From Bacteroidales bacterium (GTDB lineage: Bacteria > Bacteroidota > Bacteroidia > Bacteroidales > UBA932), in assembly GCA_015060445.1 (NCBI GenBank), contig SUYL01000015.1:32053-96052 (forward strand): a stretch of 64,000 bases of DNA. The letters run 5' to 3'. Below are positions 25,487 to 38,930 of this stretch, piece after piece; position 1 is the stretch's first letter, and every line of letters begins with the position of its first letter. The position numbers and the translations under genes were made by a program. The notes under the pieces are model-generated. The model had not been told where the DNA came from. It was given only the letters and a program-made list of their open reading frames with translations, and made no database searches.

Positions 25487-25798
25487 ATGAACGAAGATTT
25501 GTCTAAAATTCAAGAGTTGGCTGCACAGATGAAAACTCTCTTACCAGATGGCAAGAAAAATGCCCTGGACAAATTGTTGTTTGGACGGTTGTCCGGACGT
25601 CGGAAGAATGGTGTTGAAAAGGGAGTGGTGGTTCACCCCAAATTGGGGAGGCTCCTTACTGCAGGAAGGGCATCTGAAATCACCGGCTACACTACAGCAT
25701 GGCTGTTACAGTTGGCCAAGGCTGGCAGGATAAGGTATATCAAGCCGAAAAGAAACGTATTGTACTTCGAACAGGACATTTTGAGTTATATGAATTAA
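25487..25798 (+). CDS. excisionase-like / DUF3853-type helix-turn-helix protein
   Basis: small HTH protein (GRLLTAGRASEITGYTTAWLLQLAKAGRIRYIKPKRNVLYFEQDILSYMN) directly upstream of the integrase. Confidence 0.75.
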   Translation: MNEDLSKIQELAAQMKTLLPDGKKNALDKLLFGRLSGRRKNGVEKGVVVHPKLGRLLTAGRASEITGYTTAWLLQLAKAGRIRYIKPKRNVLYFEQDILSYMN

Positions 25799-25803
25799 CT
25801 AAA

Positions 25804-27030
25804 ATGTATGTTATGCAAAAGATTATTGGTAAAGTCAGATTGACTACGGTATTGAATACCAAGTCGGGTAAAAATGATGTTTATCCAGTCGCTGTAAGAG
25901 TGTACCATGGTGGCGTCAGAAGGTATTATAATGTGGAAGGAATATCATGTAAGGCAAGGTCCTGGCAGTATTTTTTCACCACAAGGGTAGAGAAGAGGAA
26001 AGCGGAAGCGGAGAAGGTAAAGGTGTTTTTCAATAAGGTTGCGAAGAGTGTTGCTTTTCTTGTTGAATCAGAAATATTTTCCTTTGCCAATCTGGATGAA
26101 GCCATATCAAAAGGAATTTCGCAGTATTCTTTTGTGTATGTGGATGAAGTGATAGATCTTCTTGAGAAAAGAAAAATGGAAATGCAGAAGATAAATACAG
26201 CTGCTACATATAGGGGGCTGCAGACAGCGATTAAGAAATGTTATCCAAGAAGGGTGCGTATTTGTGATGTCAATGGTAGTTGGTTGAACGATTTTGAAAA
26301 TAGACTTGTGGAGCAAGGTTGCAGTACTGCAACAGTAGGGATAAGGATGCGAACTCTGAAGCATGTTTTCAATACCCTGATAGATATGAATGTCTTGTCT
26401 GAGAAGTTATATCCATTTGTAAATTATACAATGCCTAAGGCGACAAGAAGAAAACTGGCATTGGGCAAAGAATTATTGGATAGGGTCAAAGATTCCACGG
26501 CAACAGATCAATATCTGAGCTTGTGGTTATTGTCGTATTATATGCAGGGGATCAATTTCTGTGATATGTTACGGTTAAAAAGAAGTAATGTGGAGTTGGT
26601 TACAGGTACAATCCGCTTCCATAGATTGAAGACTACCGGAAGAACAAAGTTCGATGAGGAGACAGTCATCCCAATAACGGACAATATAATTAGGGTGCTT
26701 GCAGATTTTATGGACTTAAATGAGTGGAAGAAGATTCCTGGTGATCCGTATCTTTTGCCATATCTTGATGATTCTATGGATGAGCAGACAAAATGGCGTA
26801 GGACAAAGACAATTACCAGGACGGTGAATAGAAAGCTAAAGATACTTTGTCCGGAGGGAAGAATAACCACATATTCAGCCAGGCATACCTTTACCTCCAA
26901 TATGCTGCATTTAGGGGCTTCGCTTGAGGATATAGCAAAGTGCCTTGGACATACATCAACAAACACAACAAGGTATTATTTGGACGGTTTGGACTATTCT
27001 TCAATAGCAGCTTATACAAGTCAATTATAA
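25804..27030 (+). CDS. int: tyrosine recombinase / site-specific integrase
   Basis: C-terminal TYSARHTFTSNMLHLGASLEDIAKCLGHTSTNTTRYYL (R-H-x-x-R...Y); SAM-like N-terminal core-binding domain. Confidence 0.93.
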   Translation: MYVMQKIIGKVRLTTVLNTKSGKNDVYPVAVRVYHGGVRRYYNVEGISCKARSWQYFFTTRVEKRKAEAEKVKVFFNKVAKSVAFLVESEIFSFANLDEAISKGISQYSFVYVDEVIDLLEKRKMEMQKINTAATYRGLQTAIKKCYPRRVRICDVNGSWLNDFENRLVEQGCSTATVGIRMRTLKHVFNTLIDMNVLSEKLYPFVNYTMPKATRRKLALGKELLDRVKDSTATDQYLSLWLLSYYMQGINFCDMLRLKRSNVELVTGTIRFHRLKTTGRTKFDEETVIPITDNIIRVLADFMDLNEWKKIPGDPYLLPYLDDSMDEQTKWRRTKTITRTVNRKLKILCPEGRITTYSARHTFTSNMLHLGASLEDIAKCLGHTSTNTTRYYLDGLDYSSIAAYTSQL

Positions 27031-27293: not shown

Positions 27294-27746
27294 ATGGAAC
27301 TTGAGGTAATACAAGATATGATATATGAGATACGTGGACAGAAGGTGATGCTGGATTATGACCTAGCTAAAATGTATGGAGTAGAGACAAAAAGACTTAA
27401 TGAATCTGTACGGAGAAATATTGGCAGATTTTCGGAAGATTTTATGTTTGAACTGACAAATGAGGAGTATAACTTATTGGAAGACAGTTCAAGGTCGCAA
27501 ATTGCGACCTTGAACAAAACTAGAGGACAGAATATAAAATACGCACCTTTTGCCTTTACCGAACAAGGCGTGGCTATGTTGTCATCTGTCTTGCGCTCAA
27601 AAGCTGCAAGAGAGATAAATCGTGGTATCATGCGTGCTTTTGTTTCTGTGCGTAGGATATTGTCAGTTATGCCTGGTATTGGCAGAGATGTCAAGGAGGA
27701 ATGCTCTGAAAAAGAGGCAAGAAAGAAAATAGGCTTTAACCGGTAA
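27294..27746 (+). CDS. ORF6N domain-containing protein (copy 1)
   Basis: IYEIRGQKVMLDYDLAKMYGVETKRLNESVRRN, YAPFAFTEQGVAMLSSVL, IMRAFVSVRR. Confidence 0.92.
   Translation: MELEVIQDMIYEIRGQKVMLDYDLAKMYGVETKRLNESVRRNIGRFSEDFMFELTNEEYNLLEDSSRSQIATLNKTRGQNIKYAPFAFTEQGVAMLSSVLRSKAAREINRGIMRAFVSVRRILSVMPGIGRDVKEECSEKEARKKIGFNR
27487..27515. repeat. 29-bp perfect palindrome (14-1-14) inside ORF6N copy 1
   Basis: gttcaaggtcgcaa-a-ttgcgaccttgaac. Confidence 0.95.
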
Positions 27747-27751
27747 ATGAT

Positions 27752-28732
27752 ATGAATTATATTGACTTAAACGAACTCAATTCTTATAATGTTGAATTGG
27801 ATGCCGAAAGTGGAGATTATATCCATTGCAGGAGACAATATTCGCAGACCGGAGCATTTTCCTGTACAGGGGTCAATACAATAGTGTCATCAGCTGATGT
27901 GGCTTTCCTGATGCGTTCATTGCAGGAGTATAGTGTTGAGCATTCTTTTGTGTGTTGTATTAAGGATGATGGCTCGCCATATTTGTTGCATCTCGGTATG
28001 GGAACTTTTGATGCATGTATGATAAACAAGGATACTATACGCTATACAGCAGACAGATTGGATGCAAAGCAGGTTTATATGATTCATAATCATCCATCGG
28101 GGACACTTGCTTTTGGTAAATCGGACAGGATAATGCATCATGGCCTTGAGGAGGTTCTTGGTGAAAGGATGAAAGGTAGTATAGTGATTAACACCACATC
28201 TGGTAAGTACCTTTTTGCTCAGCACAGCCAGGCTGAAGAGACAGTTAATGATATGTCAGGTGCCGATACAGCTGGTCCGGCAGTACAGGTGCTTGAGTTT
28301 GACAGGCAGGTTTTTGCCAAAGATTGGGATTATCACAATGCTGTCCATATCAGAGGATCTTATGATGTCGCTTCTTTTCTCTCATCTCAGCGCTTTGGTC
28401 ATAGAGAAAAAAGTGGAATGCTGATAATGAACAAAGGTATGAAAGTCGTGGCCAATATCCAGCTTCCATATTCAACTCTGACCAGGAGTAAAGTTGTTCA
28501 TCTTGCACCCTATATGCAGAATTGTACATGTGCTTTTGGTGGTGTGGCGGTACTGCCATATTTTACGGGCAAGGTAAGCGCAATGGCTATAAGGCTTCTG
28601 AATGCTGAGTTCAAGAAGATTTCTTCTTTTGATATGGTGGATGTGTGTCATAATATCAATGTTAAATTCCAGTCTGCTGTGGATGATAACCTGCTTAATT
28701 TTAAATCTCAAACGATTGGTCATATATTTTAA
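27752..28732 (+). CDS. RadC-like JAB domain protein
   Basis: MIHNHPSGTLAFGKSDRIMHHGLEEVLGERMKGSIVINTTSGKYLF (JAMM-like HxHPSG...SD). Confidence 0.75.
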   Translation: MNYIDLNELNSYNVELDAESGDYIHCRRQYSQTGAFSCTGVNTIVSSADVAFLMRSLQEYSVEHSFVCCIKDDGSPYLLHLGMGTFDACMINKDTIRYTADRLDAKQVYMIHNHPSGTLAFGKSDRIMHHGLEEVLGERMKGSIVINTTSGKYLFAQHSQAEETVNDMSGADTAGPAVQVLEFDRQVFAKDWDYHNAVHIRGSYDVASFLSSQRFGHREKSGMLIMNKGMKVVANIQLPYSTLTRSKVVHLAPYMQNCTCAFGGVAVLPYFTGKVSAMAIRLLNAEFKKISSFDMVDVCHNINVKFQSAVDDNLLNFKSQTIGHIF

Positions 28733-28738
28733 AGGATT

Positions 28739-29290
28739 ATGGAACTTCAGGTAATACAGAATATGATATATGAGATACGTGGACAGAAGGTGATGCTGGA
28801 CCGTGATCTTGCCAAACTTTATGGCGTGGAAACAAAAGCATTGAAGAGGAGTGTTAAGAATAATATGAAACGTTTTCCGGAGGATTTTATGTTTGTGCTG
28901 ACAAGGGAAGAGTGGGAGTCTTTGAGGTGTAAAAATTGCACCTCAAACAGTAGAGGAGGAGTGAGGTATCTCCCTTTTGCCTTTACAGAGCAGGGAGTGG
29001 CCATGCTGTCAGGACTATTGAATAGTGATACAGCGGTAAATGTAAATATTTCCATAATGAGGGCTTTTGTTTCTGTGCGTAGGATATTGTCAGTTATGCC
29101 AGGCATAAAGGATGAGATAGAAACCTTAAAAAGAAAAATGGAGGAACTTGAGAGGTGTACTCTTGAGGCGGTTAATGACCTTAGTGAGGATACCAGAAAA
29201 GAGTTGGATGATATCTATCTTGCGTTGGCCCAGTTGGCCAGTAAGCAAAAGTCTGCAGAGTCAGCGCGGAAGAGGATTGGATATAAATAA
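28739..29290 (+). CDS. ORF6N domain-containing protein (copy 2)
   Basis: IYEIRGQKVMLDRDLAKLYGVETKALKRSVKNN, YLPFAFTEQGVAMLSGLL, IMRAFVSVRR. Confidence 0.92.
   Translation: MELQVIQNMIYEIRGQKVMLDRDLAKLYGVETKALKRSVKNNMKRFPEDFMFVLTREEWESLRCKNCTSNSRGGVRYLPFAFTEQGVAMLSGLLNSDTAVNVNISIMRAFVSVRRILSVMPGIKDEIETLKRKMEELERCTLEAVNDLSEDTRKELDDIYLALAQLASKQKSAESARKRIGYK
28921..28947. repeat. 27-bp near-perfect palindrome inside ORF6N copy 2
   Basis: tttgaggtgtaa-aaa-ttgcacctcaaa; one G.T-compatible mismatch. Confidence 0.9.
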
Positions 29291-29377
29291 AACTTTGATT
29301 ATTAAATGTCTGAATACTTGTTTTTTAGAGTAATTTTTTGTAACTTTAACTATACTAATAAATTAAACTGTAATATT

Positions 29378-30898
29378 ATGAGGGCAATAGCTAAGTGTTT
29401 TTTCTTTTTTGCTGCAGTGGTACTTTTTGCAGCTTGTGAGAAGTCGGAGCTGGAGAATGATATGCCAGACAATCCATCAGAGAACACCTTGTCTTTAAAG
29501 AAGACTTCAGCGTCTCTTGAGTATCTGCAGGTGATGCTACTTAAAGATGTGGCACCACAAGGTGCGGTGTGGTCAGTGGTGGAAGGTAAGGATAACGTCG
29601 TATCTGTATTCAACGATACGCTTGTGGCCAGAGGTAAAGGTACTGCCAAAGTGATGGCGCAGCTTGGAGAACAGAAAGGTGTGATGATGGTGACTGTCAA
29701 CAGTGATGAGTATATTCCTGTCAAGACACTCAAACTGGAGGTGAATGGTAAGCAAATTGTGACCTTGTCCAATGATTCCTTGAGTAAGATTGTCTATTCG
29801 GAAGAGGTTATCAATTCTATGGCTGTTTTGCAGAGTGAAGCCATCAAAGAAATCAAGGTGGTGGGTTATGAGCCGGCAAATGCCACTTGTCCGTATATAG
29901 AGGAGGTCTATAACCTTTGGGTTGAGTATGAGTACCTCCAGGATGTTGATGGTTGGAGATATCAGTTGGAGGGCATCAACTATGCCAAGAGGGAGAATAC
30001 CGTATATTGTATGGAGGGTAGTAGTTTTGATGACATGGCTGGGAAGATAGGTGAGGGCAAGAGTGTGAAATTTGTCACCTTGCCGTTGTATGATGAGCGT
30101 GATTTTAAGAAGTACAGGGGTTACGAGCCTTGCGGTCTTGGGTTCAAGATGCAGATTCTTCCTGATGTATTACGGGTACAGGGTAGGAAGAACACAAAGG
30201 AAGCAGGACTTGAATATAATATGACGGTGTCATTATCAGACCAGCAGACAGAGGTGTTGTACAGACCATATAATGCAGGTAACCTTGAGACTGGTTGGCA
30301 GATTAAGGAGGGTAGACTGAAGTGGATCTACTTTGAAAAACCGAATAAGGTAGAAGTGGTGACCAATAATGAAATTAGAACTCCAATGAAATTTAATCCT
30401 GAGACTGGCTCTTGGGGTTACCCGGGAGTTGAGGATTCCTTTCCCGGTACATGGATAGATACTGTGCAAATTATAAATAATATTGTCATCCGTCCGGGTG
30501 AAACTATACAACTGCAGTTCAATGCTCAAGCTCCGCAAGAGTTCATTCAGACAGCAGAGTGGGGCTGTTGGGGTGGTGATGAATGCGCTGAGGATGACGG
30601 TTATCGACATGGAATAGGGGTTGAATATTGGGGACAATATATATCTCTAACGAGGGATGGTAAATTAACTTGCAGTGCAGATCTTGACCCTGAGTACATT
30701 ATAAATCCGGGCTATGTAGTAGATGGCCGGCCGATGGGGCAGCTAAAAAATTATCCACAATTATTCTCAGTTGAAATATATTTGATGCCATCCTGTAAGA
30801 AGAAGCAATATGAAAGGACATTTGTTGTCGGTGAATGGGAATATAAGCGTCCTGTTACACTTCAGGCCAGGGCATATGTACAGATAATTCCATGGTGA
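29378..30898 (+). CDS. lipoprotein, Ig-like (BIG2-type) N-terminal region, hypothetical
   Basis: MRAIAKCFFFFAAVVLFAACEKSE lipobox; single convergent gene downstream of ORF6N copy 2. Confidence 0.75.
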   Translation: MRAIAKCFFFFAAVVLFAACEKSELENDMPDNPSENTLSLKKTSASLEYLQVMLLKDVAPQGAVWSVVEGKDNVVSVFNDTLVARGKGTAKVMAQLGEQKGVMMVTVNSDEYIPVKTLKLEVNGKQIVTLSNDSLSKIVYSEEVINSMAVLQSEAIKEIKVVGYEPANATCPYIEEVYNLWVEYEYLQDVDGWRYQLEGINYAKRENTVYCMEGSSFDDMAGKIGEGKSVKFVTLPLYDERDFKKYRGYEPCGLGFKMQILPDVLRVQGRKNTKEAGLEYNMTVSLSDQQTEVLYRPYNAGNLETGWQIKEGRLKWIYFEKPNKVEVVTNNEIRTPMKFNPETGSWGYPGVEDSFPGTWIDTVQIINNIVIRPGETIQLQFNAQAPQEFIQTAEWGCWGGDECAEDDGYRHGIGVEYWGQYISLTRDGKLTCSADLDPEYIINPGYVVDGRPMGQLKNYPQLFSVEIYLMPSCKKKQYERTFVVGEWEYKRPVTLQARAYVQIIPW

Positions 30899-30937
30899 TT
30901 TTACTTTTGATAAAATTACTCCCCCCAATAAATAACT

Positions 30938-30962
30938 AACGGCAGCCAAATCGGCTGCCGTT
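30938..30962. terminator. bidirectional intrinsic terminator
   Basis: aacggcagcc-aaatc-ggctgccgtt between convergent genes. Confidence 0.8.
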
Positions 30963-30994
30963 CTCATTAAATTGAAAGCAATTCACAACCAACA

Positions 30995-33937
30995 TCAATA
31001 TATGATATCGAAGATCTGTTTCCATGTCATCGATGGTTTTCCCCAGCCGGATGCAAATATGCGTGAATATATCCAGTATAATCTGCCCGAGCTATCTGTC
31101 TTGGTTTTCTCTGATGTTTCTAGGTTAAAGTAATCAAGGTATGTCTGTGGGGCATTGTTCCCGTTGAAGGTGAATTGTGAGCCGTCAATGTACTGATATG
31201 TCTCTCCTTTGACGAATGTCCCATTCAGCTCTTCATAGAAACCGGTATGAGAAGTTTCATAGTCCTGGCCATTATAGGTGAAAGATACTTCCATCCCGGT
31301 CACTTCCCCTCCTTGCCATTTTTTACTGTCTGGATGGGATAGCAGTTTTGCAACCACCTCATTGACGTATTTGAAGTAGTACTCCCCTGTTCCATTATCA
31401 TAGCCTTGACTCTCTCTTGTCTCACTCTTGCTTACTCCTACCAGATATAGTGTCTCATAGAGGGTAATGGTACAGGTGGCAGTTGCCGTTTTGTCATTGT
31501 CTCCTGTTACGGTTGCGGTGAGTTTATATTCGCCGTTGTCGACTGCGCCCAAAGGAACTGTAAGGATACCGGTATTGGAGACAGTCATTTCTGTAGGGTT
31601 TTTGTCCCAACTCCATGATATCTGTGCCCGAGGGGATGTCTCCACCTTGAGGTCTACCACAGTTGCACTGCCTCCCATATTTGTGTGTACCTCTACACTC
31701 TCAAGCATGGTAAGCTGAGGCTTTACAGTGGCAGATATGGTGGCGGAGACGTCACTCCTGCCGGCTATGCTGATGGTAATGGTTCCTGAAGGAGGAAGGC
31801 TGCTCTCATCTTCTGTCTCGTAAATGACCCTGTTTGCTACCCCGTCATCGGTTGGTCCTACTCCAGGAATATTAGATGTCACTGTCACACCCAATGACGC
31901 TGCCCTTGCAGGGTATATGGTGTATCCGATGTCGTGGTAAAAGTTTTTGTATAGTGTGATGTTCGTTTCTGTAGGCACTATGCGCAGCTTCTCAACTGTG
32001 ACGCTGCATGTAGTGCTTACAGATCCGAGAGTGGCGGTGATGGTGGCACTTCCTGCTGTCAGTCCTTTTACTACGACTCCGGATGCATCATAACTCAATA
32101 TCTGTACAGTAGCACCATTGGATGATGTTACAGTATAATTGGCTCCTGCTGGGACCAGTTTGCTGAATTGTAGGTGTGCAGTTTCACCATCATAGAGTGT
32201 AATGGACTTTTGCATAAACTCGATTTGCCCGGCTACGACAGTCACTTCACAGAATAGATCCCAATGCCCGGATACCTTGATTCTTGTTTTCCCTGCTCCT
32301 ACTGCGGTCACTTTACCATTGGCATCCACAGTGGCCACGGCTGTATTCTCACTTGAGAATGTAGGCGTAAGTGGTGGTTTTATGGTGTAACTGATAGTAA
32401 AGCTCTCACCTGGATAGAGCGTCTTGGCAGTAGGGCTTATGCTGAATTCCTTGCTCAGTACTGTCACGCTACATGTCGCTTTCTTGCTGGTGTCATCTGT
32501 ACTTGTAGCTGTTATGGTACATGTTCCTGTTCCTTTGGCAGTAACTTTTCCATTGGCATCAACGGTAGCAACTGCATTGTTGCTGCTGCTCCAGTTGAGT
32601 GTCTTGACAGTAGCATTGGATGGTTGTACACTGGCTGACAACTGTGCAGTCTCATCTACATACATAGACAGGGTAGTGGGATTCATGGTCACTCCTGTAA
32701 CATATATCTTGCTGTCCACAGTTATGGCTACTGAAGCCGATATATTGGTGCCGTCTGTACTTATGGCAGTTATAGTACATGAGCCATCTCCTATGGCTTT
32801 TACTACACCGTTGGCATCAACGGTAGCAACTGCGTTATTGCTGCTACTCCAGTTGAGTGACTTGTTTGCAGCGGTCAGTGGCAACACAGTTGCGGTGATT
32901 TGTTTTGTAGCACCCAGTTCTGTGAACTTGTGGGATGTGGGGCTCAAGGATATTGAAGTCACAAGGTCAACTATCTCACTGTTGTCTACTCTCCATGTTG
33001 TCTCTGATACGGCACCATCTCCAGTGAAACTTACTGTGATGTTATGTTGTGTATTTCTCACCACATCGAAATTGGATGTCATGTCTTTACCCAGAAAAAA
33101 TCGGTATACTATATCACCTCTTTTCTTGGGTGATGAGTATGTGGCATTTATCTCAACATAACTGCAAGTAGATGCATATATGTTCCCTGCTTCAAATGTC
33201 TTTTCTGTTTGGATGAGGTTCCCTGGCAATAGTGTCCCTTGTTTGTTCTCATATTGGTATAGTACCACTCCTGATGTAAGTTGTCCTGCAGTAGGGTTGG
33301 TTACCTTTTCACCATCCATAGCTCCAGTTACGGATGTTATTTTGCTGTCTTTGAAAATGTTGATGTTTTTAGGAATATTTTTCAGCTGCACACTTTTTAC
33401 GTTGATTGTTACATCCGGGTTCAGCTGGTTGTAGTCTGCCCGGACTACTATTTTACTGATGCAGCGTGTCAGTGTTATTGGTAGTGACTGATTGTTGGTC
33501 AGTGTCTGCAGTCCGCTTTTGCCGCTCATCAGTACGGCTCCCGTTCCTGATGCCATCTGTGATACCGATGAGATGCTATATACAAGGTTATCCACCTCTT
33601 GAGCCGATTTTGCAGGCAGTGGCATGCCGGCATTGGCTATTGCATATACGGTATATTTCATGTTCTTGTATATGACTGCCTCTACCTGCCCGGATGAGGT
33701 ATAGTATCCGTGTGTTACAAGGTCTCCAAGTTCATTGAGAATGTACAGGTTCACGTTCTCCACCAGGGCCTCATTTACGGCTTTGGTAGACATGCCTTCA
33801 ATGGTGTAGCACATGGTGACAGCCACACTGTCCTGCTGGCCGTATGCCTTTACCATAGGATCCTGGTCGGTGTTTTCCTTGCTGCAGGAGAGCAGTAGAT
33901 ATGCCAGAATTGTTAATAGCAGAGTTAATTTACGCAT
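30995..33937 (-). CDS. large surface lipoprotein with repeated BIG2 Ig-like domains, fimbrial-locus tip/stalk-like
   Basis: lipobox LLLSCSKEN; N-terminal Mfa-like region; repeats LNWSSSNNAVATVDANGxVxAxGxGxCTITAxSTD; DNA-level repeats near 32551 and 32812. Confidence 0.8.
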   Translation of the reverse strand: MRKLTLLLTILAYLLLSCSKENTDQDPMVKAYGQQDSVAVTMCYTIEGMSTKAVNEALVENVNLYILNELGDLVTHGYYTSSGQVEAVIYKNMKYTVYAIANAGMPLPAKSAQEVDNLVYSISSVSQMASGTGAVLMSGKSGLQTLTNNQSLPITLTRCISKIVVRADYNQLNPDVTINVKSVQLKNIPKNINIFKDSKITSVTGAMDGEKVTNPTAGQLTSGVVLYQYENKQGTLLPGNLIQTEKTFEAGNIYASTCSYVEINATYSSPKKRGDIVYRFFLGKDMTSNFDVVRNTQHNITVSFTGDGAVSETTWRVDNSEIVDLVTSISLSPTSHKFTELGATKQITATVLPLTAANKSLNWSSSNNAVATVDANGVVKAIGDGSCTITAISTDGTNISASVAITVDSKIYVTGVTMNPTTLSMYVDETAQLSASVQPSNATVKTLNWSSSNNAVATVDANGKVTAKGTGTCTITATSTDDTSKKATCSVTVLSKEFSISPTAKTLYPGESFTISYTIKPPLTPTFSSENTAVATVDANGKVTAVGAGKTRIKVSGHWDLFCEVTVVAGQIEFMQKSITLYDGETAHLQFSKLVPAGANYTVTSSNGATVQILSYDASGVVVKGLTAGSATITATLGSVSTTCSVTVEKLRIVPTETNITLYKNFYHDIGYTIYPARAASLGVTVTSNIPGVGPTDDGVANRVIYETEDESSLPPSGTITISIAGRSDVSATISATVKPQLTMLESVEVHTNMGGSATVVDLKVETSPRAQISWSWDKNPTEMTVSNTGILTVPLGAVDNGEYKLTATVTGDNDKTATATCTITLYETLYLVGVSKSETRESQGYDNGTGEYYFKYVNEVVAKLLSHPDSKKWQGGEVTGMEVSFTYNGQDYETSHTGFYEELNGTFVKGETYQYIDGSQFTFNGNNAPQTYLDYFNLETSEKTKTDSSGRLYWIYSRIFASGWGKPSMTWKQIFDIIY

Positions 33938-34164
33938 ATATTTTTTCTTTAAGTTTGAATATCTTTTTATAGTCGTCATACAGCCCCAATTCTCTCAGTG
34001 CGTATATGGAAGTGTTATTGAGGGATTTTTCATGGACTATTAAAAATAGAGCCCGGTATTATGGAATGTTTTCCGGCGGCCCCATGGAAATTCAACCGCC
34101 CCGGACTCTGAATGGCAGGATTATTTACGCTCTCCATGCCTGTATTTTGTGGTTTAGGATTAGT

Positions 34165-34998
34165 TTATATTTCTATATCAACAGGGTATGTTGATGTCCA
34201 GTTTTCAATTTTTATACTGACGAAGTTGAAAGACATGTCCATTGTTATGGTTACATCCTTCAGGTCATCACTTTGCATGTTATAGTTGGCTTTCTTAAGG
34301 AACTCTCCCAATGGGAAGTCCTCTATCTTGACAGGGGTATTATCCACTGTCCCGGTTATCTTTATCAGGAGATCCTCAATATTCTCCTGTCTCATTATGC
34401 GGAAGCGGAACAGACTGTTCCCATCTGTTGTCTCCCTATCTTCCACGCTTATGCTCATATTGCCCGGTACATGACGTCTGTCAATGTATAAACCGGCAGT
34501 AGTTCCATATACATCTATATGTATGTCATCCCCTTTCTGAGGGGTGCTGTCCATGATGAAATCCATAGTGGCGAATTCCTTGTGGAGCTTTACGGTGTCA
34601 TATATGAATTCTCCGTGGGTACTGATTTTTTCGCTTGCCTGGTAGTATAGTGAATCAGATGATACTTTCCCTTTTTTTACGATGGATGAATTTAGAGTCA
34701 TATCATCTGTAACTGTCGAGGAGGACTTTATATTGCCGAATACATAGTATCTGAGTGCATCAATCCTTGGAAGCATTACTTCATGATGTGTGCGGTATTC
34801 TGATGAGTATATTGTATCTTTCAGCAGTACTTTTCCTGTGTTCTCATCAGTGAACCATATATGCAATTGTTCAATGTCTGTATTGACCGAAGAGCAATCC
34901 AGGGAAAACCAGCTCGGACAAGCCGAGCGGTCTTCGAAGATTCCTGGAGTACAGCTGCATAATATGGTTACAAGACACATTATAGCAAATCTGTTCAT
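34165..34998 (-). CDS. FimB/Mfa2-like fimbrial anchor lipoprotein
   Basis: MNRFAIMCLVTILCSCTPGIFEDRSACPSWFSLDCSSV..LPRIDALRYYVFGNIK. Confidence 0.75.
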   Translation of the reverse strand: MNRFAIMCLVTILCSCTPGIFEDRSACPSWFSLDCSSVNTDIEQLHIWFTDENTGKVLLKDTIYSSEYRTHHEVMLPRIDALRYYVFGNIKSSSTVTDDMTLNSSIVKKGKVSSDSLYYQASEKISTHGEFIYDTVKLHKEFATMDFIMDSTPQKGDDIHIDVYGTTAGLYIDRRHVPGNMSISVEDRETTDGNSLFRFRIMRQENIEDLLIKITGTVDNTPVKIEDFPLGEFLKKANYNMQSDDLKDVTITMDMSFNFVSIKIENWTSTYPVDIEI

Positions 34999-35021
34999 GT
35001 TGCAAGATTTAGATTATCATA

Positions 35022-36095
35022 TTAGAAAATTACATTTACTGTAGGTACGGTAGCCCAATCGGCAACATTCATTGTCGCTTGCATTGTTGAATGTTCTACA
35101 GGTGTGTCAGGATCCAGTGAGCCTGGTCTTAGTATGGTAACATTGATGGTGTAAGTTGTATTACGTTTGATACCCATATGGCCTACTGATGAGTTATAGC
35201 CAAAACCCTCCCTGTTGATGCTGATAGGGTAATAGTATGTATGACCGTTAAGATCTGCCTGGATTACCAGTTTTGTGAACTTCTTGTCGGCAGATTCATT
35301 GGCCAAAAGGTTCTCATAGCAGTAGAAAGTATGTGTGGTGTTGTATCCTGAATCTGTAATGGCTGTTGCTGTCTCATCGTAGAGCATTCCTGCCATTGTA
35401 CAAGCATTGATGTCTGTAGCTACAACCTTTTTTGTATTCAGTATGGTAGGAGAGGGCTGGTCGCTGCCATCATGGTACAGTTTGTCACCTGCAGCGTTGA
35501 TCAGATACATCTTAACGTTGGTAAGGGATGAACCTGCCCATGGTGTTCCGGCAAATTGTGTCTTCACACTTGCCAGTTGAACCCTTGACACAAGTCGGCT
35601 GATGGAGAATGTAACTGATGTTGTAGTCTGAAGTACAGCTTCAAGGCTACCTGTCATTGTGAAGTCCTTGTTGTTTTCAGATTGCAATGATGCTATCTGC
35701 GCTTTGAAGTCTGCCAATGTCTTTACACCTGCCCAGTTGTCACTCTTGTGGGAATTGGCTACTGCATAGATGTGTTTTTTTCCTGTGGTTGTCTTAACCT
35801 CCAAGTTTGATAGGCTTGTCAGTTCAGCAGCAGTATACATTTTGTATGCATCCAGCATGCCGGCATCTGCGCCCTCTGCACGGAACACAAAGAATTCGAG
35901 CTTTTGAACAGTATTATCATCCGCTTGTACACCGTGTGCGCCTCCTGTCGCTTTTGATTGCACCTGGTCTTCAGGTATAATGTTTATTGAAAGAATGCTC
36001 TCCTGCATCTCGTTTGAATTGTTGGCCTTTTCGCAAGAGATAGTTGTCAAGCCCATAAGAAGGGCTGAAGCCAAAATAAAAAATGTTTTTTTCAT
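35022..36095 (-). CDS. fimbrillin family (Mfa1/FimA-like) major subunit
   Basis: MKKTFFILASALLMGLTTISCEK; QKLEFFVFRAEGADAG...HIYAVANSH...FTMTGS...ISRLVSRVQLASV. Confidence 0.82.
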   Translation of the reverse strand: MKKTFFILASALLMGLTTISCEKANNSNEMQESILSINIIPEDQVQSKATGGAHGVQADDNTVQKLEFFVFRAEGADAGMLDAYKMYTAAELTSLSNLEVKTTTGKKHIYAVANSHKSDNWAGVKTLADFKAQIASLQSENNKDFTMTGSLEAVLQTTTSVTFSISRLVSRVQLASVKTQFAGTPWAGSSLTNVKMYLINAAGDKLYHDGSDQPSPTILNTKKVVATDINACTMAGMLYDETATAITDSGYNTTHTFYCYENLLANESADKKFTKLVIQADLNGHTYYYPISINREGFGYNSSVGHMGIKRNTTYTINVTILRPGSLDPDTPVEHSTMQATMNVADWATVPTVNVIF

Positions 36096-36105
36096 GTTTT
36101 TTGTA

Positions 36106-38067
36106 TTAAATGGTGTCTAAATGTTTGTCAAGGGCATATTTCTTTATCAGTTGTGATACTTCAGGATCAAGGTTGCCTCGATGTCTCATAGAGTAGTCCT
36201 GCTCTACGCTTTGCAGGAAATGTTCTATAGCTTTTTGTTCTTTGCCTAACCGGGCATACACTACAGCAAGCATATAGTCTCTCTGAGCAGAACGGGGGAG
36301 GGTTGTCAGTACTGAGAGTGCGCTTTGATTATAGTCCATACATACGAAGGCTACGGCTGAGTTGTAGTCCATATAAGGTCTAAGAAGTTTTACGGCACTT
36401 TCATAATCCCTGTCTTCAAGGGCTTGTACACCTTGCATATATACCGAGTCAATCTCTGTGGTGTGGACTGTATCTTTGATCATGCCTTTCCTATGCAGGA
36501 AGAAGTCAAATTTTACGGTTCTCAGTTTTGCATATAACTCACTGCGTATATACTTGTAGTCTTTTGTCTGTTGAAGAGCTTTCTCCCTTTCATCAAGGTC
36601 CTCCACTTCCAGGCATTTGAGAATGCTTTCCCTGTCAATTAGTGATGTATCTTTATCAATCAGCTCCTTCAGTGTATCCCATTCTTCCGGGTGTGAATGT
36701 GTAAGTATGCCAATATCCTGGATCTCACTTTGTCTCATCTTCCCATCGCCCTCAGTGGTGAGGTCTATTACAAACATTGAATTCGCTACACTATCCCGGT
36801 AATCTTGTATGAATCGGTTGAAGTAATATTTGATGGACTGTGCTCTATTTTCAGCAAGTTTTGCGTTGGATGCAACTGTACCTTCAGGTGAGCAGCTTGC
36901 CGTAATGAGCAGTGAGTCCACTATGTAATCTTCTGCGGAGAGTACTGTGCGGATATTGTTTTTTATTCGGGCAATCTCTTTAGAGTTATTAGACAGAGTG
37001 TCATCTATATCATATCTGCCTACTTTGAATGCAATGTTTGCAGCTGTGTTGGCTTCAGCATTGCGATGAACCACTTTCTGAATATATCTTGGAGATTGGT
37101 CTGTGAATGCAGACATGGAACTGATATAGAATGTAAGAGGAGCTGTCTGAGGCATGGTATATATCCTGTCGTAACTGCCAGCTTCATATATTTCCCCTTT
37201 CAATACCATTTCTACTTTACGAAGGTTACGCCTTGTCTTGACAGGTTGCACGTAGTTGTACCGTATGGTGCCGTCAGCATTATTGATGACAGAATCCAAT
37301 CGGACGCCAACAAGTTTTATGGGATCTGTGACGTATCTGGCAAACATCTCATCCATCTTCTCCTTTTTCTTGTTGTTCTTCCTTACCAAGGAGTGCCTGG
37401 TGTAATAGTCCACAGCCTGTGCTTCAGTTACACCGAACGCAGTCCCGGTCTTCTGTCTGCTTCCTCTGAAAAATGACGACTTCTCCCTGTTTACATTCCT
37501 TTCCAGGAAAACTGTCAACAGGTGATCTTTTGTAAATGTCTTGTAGAAATCAGCGGTATCGGAGATGATTGTCTCAAGATACTTGTTATACTGAGCATAT
37601 CCTTTTTGCTGCCCCTCCCTGTATTTTGCGCCGGTGATCAGCAGTTCATCAAGGTTCAATGTGTCTTCGAGAATGCGGAACTGTGGCTGGAAACGTAGTT
37701 GCCAGTCTTCATCCTGCATTTCTTTAGGTACGATAATGTCAAATGAGATATCAACATATCCGTTCCTCTCGGCCAGATGTCTGAACTTAGCTTCTACCAC
37801 TATGGCATTGAGCTGCTCAACTGCAACCATCTCACCACTCTCTTCATCCTTGACAGCATTCATTATTATGCTTTCTCCTTTTATGTTCTGTATCTCCACC
37901 TTCGTTGTGGTATCTGCCATATATAGTTGCTGCATCTGTTGGCTGTCCTCACTCATGGCCACTGATGCCTGTAGATGCTCCTTTTTGATTTTTTTTATTT
38001 TCTGCTGTGTCGAGCAACCCATCATGATGACTGACAACAGTAGAATTGTATATGTAATTTTTCTCAT
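36106..38067 (-). CDS. fimbrial-locus outer-membrane lipoprotein with OmpA-like and TPR-like regions
   Basis: lipobox MMGCSTQ; VDSLLITASCSPEGTVASNAKLAENRAQSIKYYF OmpA-like segment; TPR-like C-terminus. Confidence 0.75.
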   Translation of the reverse strand: MRKITYTILLLSVIMMGCSTQQKIKKIKKEHLQASVAMSEDSQQMQQLYMADTTTKVEIQNIKGESIIMNAVKDEESGEMVAVEQLNAIVVEAKFRHLAERNGYVDISFDIIVPKEMQDEDWQLRFQPQFRILEDTLNLDELLITGAKYREGQQKGYAQYNKYLETIISDTADFYKTFTKDHLLTVFLERNVNREKSSFFRGSRQKTGTAFGVTEAQAVDYYTRHSLVRKNNKKKEKMDEMFARYVTDPIKLVGVRLDSVINNADGTIRYNYVQPVKTRRNLRKVEMVLKGEIYEAGSYDRIYTMPQTAPLTFYISSMSAFTDQSPRYIQKVVHRNAEANTAANIAFKVGRYDIDDTLSNNSKEIARIKNNIRTVLSAEDYIVDSLLITASCSPEGTVASNAKLAENRAQSIKYYFNRFIQDYRDSVANSMFVIDLTTEGDGKMRQSEIQDIGILTHSHPEEWDTLKELIDKDTSLIDRESILKCLEVEDLDEREKALQQTKDYKYIRSELYAKLRTVKFDFFLHRKGMIKDTVHTTEIDSVYMQGVQALEDRDYESAVKLLRPYMDYNSAVAFVCMDYNQSALSVLTTLPRSAQRDYMLAVVYARLGKEQKAIEHFLQSVEQDYSMRHRGNLDPEVSQLIKKYALDKHLDTI

Positions 38068-38090
38068 TTCTTATTAAATCAAGTGTTTTT

Positions 38091-38930
38091 TCAGGCTGTT
38101 TTGATTGACTTGTATATGTCATACAGGAATATTCTGTCTTCTTCTTTTGTTGTGTTTACGATTACCTCGAGTAGTTTGTCAGCATCTATCTTCGGAGTGA
38201 TGGATTCTGTCAGTACTTTTGTCGGGTTCTGATGTCCTGCAAAGGCACTTATAAATAGGGAAGCCTTTTTTGTGGGCTGTCTTATGCTGCTGAACAGCTT
38301 CATCACTCCATCAATGGAGAAGTATCTTTTAGGTGTGGCATTATCTGATGCTGTACTGTCTGAGAACCAGTATATATATCGTTTGAAGTGAGGCTCGCTC
38401 AGTTTTTTCCTCAGATGGCTTCCCCAGACCTCGCATGCTTTCATGATGTCCTTCACCTTGTAATATATATTGCCATTGTAATGTACTGTCATCACAGGAT
38501 GTCCGCCTATGCTTATCAGTTCCGGTGTATGATGCCCGGGCATTATGTTGCGCCCGGCAATATATCGTTGTGATTTGAAAGTGTTGTTCTCAACCTTCCC
38601 CATCAGCAGCAGCTCCTTGATGCGGTCATTGCACCAGATGTAGAAAGATGGAGATAACCATTGAGCAAATAATAATGCCAGATCTTCATTTAAAAAAGTT
38701 CCTTGTATTCTATTGCCACCTTGAATAATTTTAATTAACCCCGTTCGGGGAATTCCCCGAACGGCAGATAATGAGGTAATTAGCTCTTCGGTTTGTTGTA
38801 GGCGTAGCCAATCACTTGGTTGTTTTCCAAATGGCTTTGCCATCTGTGTAGCGTTTATCATTGTGGTTTCACCCACTTGAAATGATATGGAATTGTCGTT
38901 GTAGTTAAATATTTTCAGATTCTTTCCCAT
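38091..38930 (-). CDS. KilA-N domain-containing protein embedded in the fimbrial operon
   Basis: INATQMAKPFGKQPSDWLRLQQTEELI...GTFLNEDLALLFAQWLSPSFYIWCNDRIKELL. Confidence 0.9.
   Translation of the reverse strand: MGKNLKIFNYNDNSISFQVGETTMINATQMAKPFGKQPSDWLRLQQTEELITSLSAVRGIPRTGLIKIIQGGNRIQGTFLNEDLALLFAQWLSPSFYIWCNDRIKELLLMGKVENNTFKSQRYIAGRNIMPGHHTPELISIGGHPVMTVHYNGNIYYKVKDIMKACEVWGSHLRKKLSEPHFKRYIYWFSDSTASDNATPKRYFSIDGVMKLFSSIRQPTKKASLFISAFAGHQNPTKVLTESITPKIDADKLLEVIVNTTKEEDRIFLYDIYKSIKTA
38741..38764. repeat. 24-bp perfect palindrome inside KilA-N gene
   Basis: ccgttcggggaattccccgaacgg, encoding AVRGIPRT. Confidence 0.95.

Follow-up and report, generated by a model that had tools for sequence, protein, structure and literature searches.

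Conserved palindromes in the DNA-binding-domain codons of KilA-N and ORF6N genes are constrained as DNA and are candidate self-recognition sites

Introduction

Domains of the KilA-N, ORF6N and Bro-N families occur widely in bacterial genomes, phages and large DNA viruses. Here we describe in-frame palindromes (dyads) in the codons of the DNA-binding domain of three such genes, which are located in a 64,000-nucleotide stretch of a Bacteroidales bacterium (contig SUYL01000015.1, positions 32,053 to 96,052; hereafter the window), and we follow these dyads across the superfamily. Dyad sites inside genes are known from lac O2 and gal OI, which are intragenic auxiliary operators present alongside a promoter-proximal operator. 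These are single cases, located in the regulated enzyme genes and not in the DNA-binding domain of a regulator. Rickettsia palindromic elements are also in-frame coding palindromes, which occur as mobile repeats in unrelated genes; unlike them, the dyads described here keep to a single position within a single superfamily. HK022 Roi, a phage protein of the Rha/ANT type, is said to bind within its own gene (a finding attributed to Clerget and Boccard, 1996), and this site is reportedly not described as a feature of the superfamily. In contrast to the window genes, a strong palindrome is absent from roi (best score 6).

KilA-N has been described as a DNA-binding domain, and its relative BstA is suppressed by aba, an allele-specific element which lies in the bstA gene and acts as DNA (PMC8585504). 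The likeness to the present genes lies in the combination of a KilA-N-like domain with a DNA-based, allele-specific self-recognition element which overlaps the gene itself (PMC8585504). However, aba spans positions −29 to +34 of the gene and needs direct CCCGCC repeats for its function (PMC8585504), whereas the window dyads are inverted repeats situated ~165-220 nucleotides into the gene and not direct CCCGCC repeats at its 5' end. The window ORF6N proteins (150 and 183 amino acids, each with one Pfam domain) also differ from the 307-amino-acid, two-domain BstA, and bstA has no palindrome at the place equivalent to the ORF6N/KilA-N dyad. The DNA-level constraint on the dyads agrees with the DNA-based nature of aba, while suppression of the protein by its dyad is only putative. 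Intragenic operators and aba-like elements are thus known, but a search of the open-access literature found no account of a superfamily-wide dyad in DNA-binding-domain codons, and a preliminary description of the window knew of none either.

Three palindromes in the window

The three genes and their palindromes are listed below in window coordinates.

27294–27746, + strand: ORF6N-1 gene, open reading frame of 150 amino acids (Pfam ORF6N, 5.2e-34)
27487–27515: palindrome 1, gttcaaggtcgcaa-a-ttgcgaccttgaac, encoding the peptide SSRSQIATLN; 14/14 pairs around one base
28739–29290, + strand: ORF6N-2 gene, open reading frame of 183 amino acids (Pfam ORF6N, 9e-37)
28921–28947: palindrome 2, tttgaggtgtaaaaattgcacctcaaa, encoding the peptide SLRCKNCTSN; 11/13 paired
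38091–38930, − strand: KilA-N gene, open reading frame of 279 amino acids (Pfam KilA-N, 2.7e-22)
38741–38764: palindrome 3, ccgttcggggaattccccgaacgg, encoding the peptide AVRGIPRTG; 12/12 pairs

The sequences and coordinates of all three palindromes are exactly those of the preliminary description. Its claim that every gene of these families in a putative integrative and conjugative element (ICE) carries a dyad also holds for the whole window, as Pfam profiles confirm the ORF6N domain (PF10543) in two genes (116.8 and 125.7 bits against a cut-off of 27.8) and the KilA-N domain (PF04383) in one (79.1 bits against 23.8), and no further ORF6N or KilA-N gene was found in the 64 kb. The dyads occupy the equivalent domain position it had proposed, between the domain helix and the FTEQG / GTF block. 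The mispairs of palindrome 2 are one T.G and, on a one-base reading of the centre, a central A.A.

Among 1000 synonymous-codon shuffles per gene, none matches the palindrome of ORF6N-1 and none that of the KilA-N gene, whereas that of ORF6N-2 is equalled by 3/1000 on pairs and by 8/1000 on best score. Only four palindromes with a score of at least 11 and a loop of at most 5 are present in the whole window, and two of them are among the three listed above. The three nearest relatives found for the window KilA-N gene (L158, L159 and L390; L numbers denote our loci) have no such dyad, in a subfamily which is poorly sampled, and the KilA-N dyad is for this reason less supported by relatives than the ORF6N dyads. 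The two window ORF6N genes have near-identical stretches in common (MIYEIRGQKVMLD and RAFVSVRRILSVMPG).

Dyads across the superfamily

ORF6N genes were gathered from genome collections and viral contigs through protein similarity or matches to the Pfam profile, and KilA-N genes likewise, with many of the sequences coming from Bacteroidota and metagenome assemblies. In the resulting non-redundant sets a dyad was counted at a score of at least 8, and each gene was compared with 60 synonymous shuffles of itself. Repeating the analysis after removal of fourteen loci which had been fetched by palindrome pattern (L085-L098) left the ORF6N result standing: a dyad is present in 130/141 ORF6N genes, from many phyla. 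Among KilA-N genes the count is 63/70. The mean palindrome score is 11.3 against 5.0 in the shuffles for ORF6N, with 111 of the 141 genes beating all 60 shuffles, and 12.0 against 5.2 for KilA-N (56/70 beating all 60). The best palindrome elsewhere within the same genes reaches a score of only ~6.4. The preliminary description had staked its claim on the synonymous-shuffle control and on the share of family members with a dyad; the shuffles are far less palindromic than the genes, and the large majority of members have one. The phenomenon is also wider than was thought there, as it extends over many phyla and includes Bro-N and DinD genes.

Each family has its own type of dyad. The ORF6N dyad, which precedes the FTEQG block in almost every gene, typically reads TTGAGGTCACAA-N-TTGTGACCTCAA, variants being numerous, and has a conserved CACAA.TTGTG core. 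KilA-N dyads have TTTTAA-N5-TCGAATTCGA-N5-TTAAAA in common, with GAATTC as the conserved core and the centre usually lying 33 codons ahead of the GRYGGT motif. Bro-N and DinD genes have their dyads at the matching place; the Bro-N type is CTGTCGACAA-N-TTGTCGACAG and the DinD type GACCATTT...AAATGGTC with varied middles, the dyad of Escherichia coli K-12 dinD being tgaccatttcgagga-GA-tcctcgatatggtca. The longest perfect arms measure 19 bp. Some ORF6N genes (L008, L074) have an in-frame stop within or beside the dyad, the dyad itself being intact.

The constraint acts on DNA

Pairing at the third codon positions of the arms was analysed over the four families. Codon usage predicts 663 Watson-Crick pairs, whereas 1620 are observed; G.T (38 against 314 expected), A.C (42 against 331) and other mispairs (29 against 421) are all depleted. 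This outcome was repeated for ORF6N without any palindrome-score filter. Arm covariation at internal sites exceeds that of permuted half-sites with z=27 for ORF6N and 16 for KilA-N; because the permutation sets were filtered on palindrome score, the unfiltered third-position test is the cleaner figure. Compensated arm changes rise with the divergence of the flanking protein, whereas uncompensated changes plateau near two; between L103 and L122, whose flanks are 85% identical, there are three compensated changes and zero uncompensated. The co-variation of arms which the preliminary description had suspected is thus seen in third-position pairing, half-site permutation and compensated changes alike.

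The ORF6N dyad is kept even when the reading frame through it differs, with VVTNCDHLK (L047) or VITNCDNLP (L014) encoded in place of LRSQFVTS. A protein-level cause is ruled out by these dyads together with the pairing at synonymous sites. Since G.T and A.C are equally rare, selection does not act through pairing in the sense-strand RNA, and the constraint is on DNA. Hence, of the selection at DNA or RNA level proposed in the preliminary description, the DNA part stands and the RNA part is disfavoured.

A hairpin in the messenger RNA (mRNA), controlling translation or mRNA stability, was among the mechanisms first proposed. The dyads are transcribed and the upstream copies described below could fall in leaders, but G.U is as depleted at synonymous sites as A.C, the spacing is rigid and Rfam gave no match at or above the gathering score. 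We therefore reject a cis-regulatory mRNA hairpin as the main explanation and regard it as most improbable. Compensated double changes without G.U intermediates, as observed, are also what template switching between the arms would yield, a process which could keep any palindrome perfect without selection. Such mutational upkeep leaves unexplained why the dyad holds one position in four families, why copies exist upstream and why no similar palindromes occur in other parts of these genes. As the whole explanation it is very unlikely, although template switching may act in addition to selection.

Upstream copies, spacing and genomic distribution

The flanks of the genes were scanned with a weight matrix built from the internal sites, a partly palindromic site being required. 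In the interval 150-400 nucleotides before the internal site (~20-130 nucleotides before the start codon), 30 ORF6N sites are present against 1.4 expected from other positions, and 8 KilA-N sites against 0.33, an enrichment of family-type sites of ~20-fold. Removal of the pattern-fetched loci leaves 28 ORF6N sites in 24 genes. When half-sites are scanned without the palindrome demand, the upstream enrichment is 38-fold and symmetry exceeds chance with z=6.1. The spacer between the CAA/TTG cores is exactly 1 nucleotide in 16/17 upstream non-coding sites and in 84/85 internal ORF6N sites. Several loci (L045, L015, L110, L275 and L147) contain two palindromes in the putative promoter region; each is self-complementary, and the arms of the two differ.

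The rigid spacer and the arms bear on a rival explanation, namely a DNA hairpin or cruciform, or a single-stranded hairpin formed in transfer or replication, which would be recognised by its shape so that the arms could be any complementary sequence. The arms do covary with free sequence and are perfect over up to 19 bp, and the two upstream sites and the internal site of one locus can have different arms (L045, L015 and L147). The fact that arms differ within one locus, together with the weak likeness of upstream sites to the own internal arms, keeps this model alive. However, a fixed 1-nucleotide spacer leaves no loop of its own, and the cores are conserved in sequence in both KilA-N and ORF6N dyads. 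We consider this explanation unlikely, while giving it more weight than any other rival.

Exact patterns were scanned over 299 Bacteroidota genomes with the reversed pattern as control. The KilA-type pattern gives 20 sites, and 18 of the 19 loci examined lie inside KilA-N genes; nearly all ORF6N-type sites are in or beside ORF6N genes. In the same genomes the reversed pattern is found nowhere for KilA-N and at one place for ORF6N. A dispersed palindromic repeat similar to the Rickettsia elements is rejected on these grounds, and the near-exclusive occurrence in or beside family genes points to a local, self-directed site with no visible regulon.

It is also conceivable that another protein (a host factor, a competing repressor or a mobile-element recombinase) recognises the site and that the family genes are its targets. 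The upstream variants match the internal-site repertoire of other members, as if paralogues bound each other's genes, and family-type palindromes occur at three loci (L277, L297 and L318) where tblastn finds neither an ORF6N nor a KilA-N gene within ~1.5 kb. However, no constant partner gene was noticed, in loci which were not systematically tested for one, and the type of site depends on which family the gene holding it belongs to. On balance this explanation is improbable. An ORF6N-type palindrome (ttaagatcacagActgtgaccttaa) is located ~290 nucleotides before the KilA-N dyad of L128, a hint of cross-family sites, and in L122 a cluster of three ORF6N-type palindromes lies 331-401 nucleotides downstream of the ORF6N dyad.

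Self-recognition as the favoured explanation

The rigid spacing, absence of wobble pairs, conserved cores, copies ahead of the start codon and restriction to the own locus lead us to interpret the dyad as a self-recognition site. We do so also because KilA-N has been described as DNA-binding and its relative BstA has a DNA element in its own gene. On this sequence-based evidence, the palindrome is probably a double-stranded dyad site, formed by codons of the DNA-binding domain itself, which would be recognised by the product of the gene that carries it. Among the three mechanisms of the preliminary description, the self-binding site thus fits the upstream copies, the fixed spacing and the lack of dispersed sites best, the other two being disfavoured or unsupported.

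The product would bind the palindrome probably as a homodimer. One option is autoregulation, in which occlusion of the promoter-proximal site would cause repression and the intragenic site would serve as a second operator or a roadblock. By analogy with aba and the KilA-N-like BstA, another option is that the site would allow allele-specific self-recognition of the element carrying the gene. The varying arms would then reflect a drifting or diversifying specificity.

Several observations weigh against self-recognition. Dyads are missing from L158, L159, L390 and several Bro-N genes, and a matching dyad was sought and not found in HK022 roi, BTP1 rha and bstA. The majority class of E. coli dinD alleles, which is the class divergent from K-12 described below, has a poor dyad with 10/16 pairs, a point against strict conservation. 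Only ~17% of ORF6N genes have an identified upstream site. The variable arms of upstream sites resemble the own internal arms weakly in ORF6N (p ~0.01) and not at all in KilA-N, so that a self-specific arm code linking the two sites is weak for the former and absent for the latter; a strict code of one sequence per protein would not predict this. In L045, L015 and L147 the upstream and internal arms of one locus can differ, each being self-complementary. Lastly, some arms extend to 19 bp, which is more than a simple dimer site would be expected to need.

No solved structures of relatives were found by sequence, and the fold search gave weak matches only, with the Dachshund/Ski DNA-binding fold at the top. 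In AlphaFold models (predicted local distance difference test 78-79) the dyad-coded segment forms a helix end and a disordered loop in ORF6N, and a short helix before the wing in KilA-N. This modelled placement in the DNA-binding domain is suggestive only.

It is possible, and we propose it tentatively, that across KilA-N, ORF6N, Bro-N and DinD the gene segment encoding part of the DNA-binding domain is also the DNA recognised by that domain. Because codon and recognition sequence would then be one object, a change of specificity would rewrite the peptide and its target together. If true, this would provide mobile elements with a self-referential label of self and non-self, and would be a rare example of a long-kept dyad within coding sequence, with arms and peptide changing jointly. 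A built-in candidate target in each gene makes the DNA targets of KilA-N, ORF6N and Bro-N proteins directly testable, including that of E. coli K-12 dinD.

Alleles of E. coli dinD

The dinD gene is a long-known SOS gene of E. coli. A match to it is present in 4651/5426 complete E. coli genomes, and in 2749 records identity to K-12 over the first 440 bases is only 60-80%. The dinD alleles among our loci are L357 (1261-2085) and L398-L402. Of five examples compared, four belong to the divergent class; in these, identity is 53-70% up to about nucleotide 240 and 92-100% over the remainder, with a conserved upstream region. The gene is dimorphic, a large group of strains having another N-terminal domain (~240 bp) while the other parts of the gene and the upstream region are nearly identical. 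This exchange, the one domain swap found, moved the DNA-binding domain and the dyad as one block, which could be read in favour of the early proposal that the palindrome is a recombination site for domain exchange. However, the breakpoints are located near the start codon and at about codon 80, away from the dyad, and the dyads differ between the alleles and therefore offer no shared homology. The proposal thus gains no direct support, and its probability is very low.

Other features of the window

Two neighbouring genes give the context of the ORF6N genes.

25699–27030, + strand: tyrosine recombinase gene just upstream of ORF6N-1 (Pfam Phage_integrase, 1.3e-15)
27752–28732, + strand: RadC-like gene between ORF6N-1 and ORF6N-2 (Pfam RadC, 1e-07)

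A strong inverted repeat with 18-nucleotide arms, flanked by runs of A and T, is present at 1536-1574 and is probably a bidirectional terminator.

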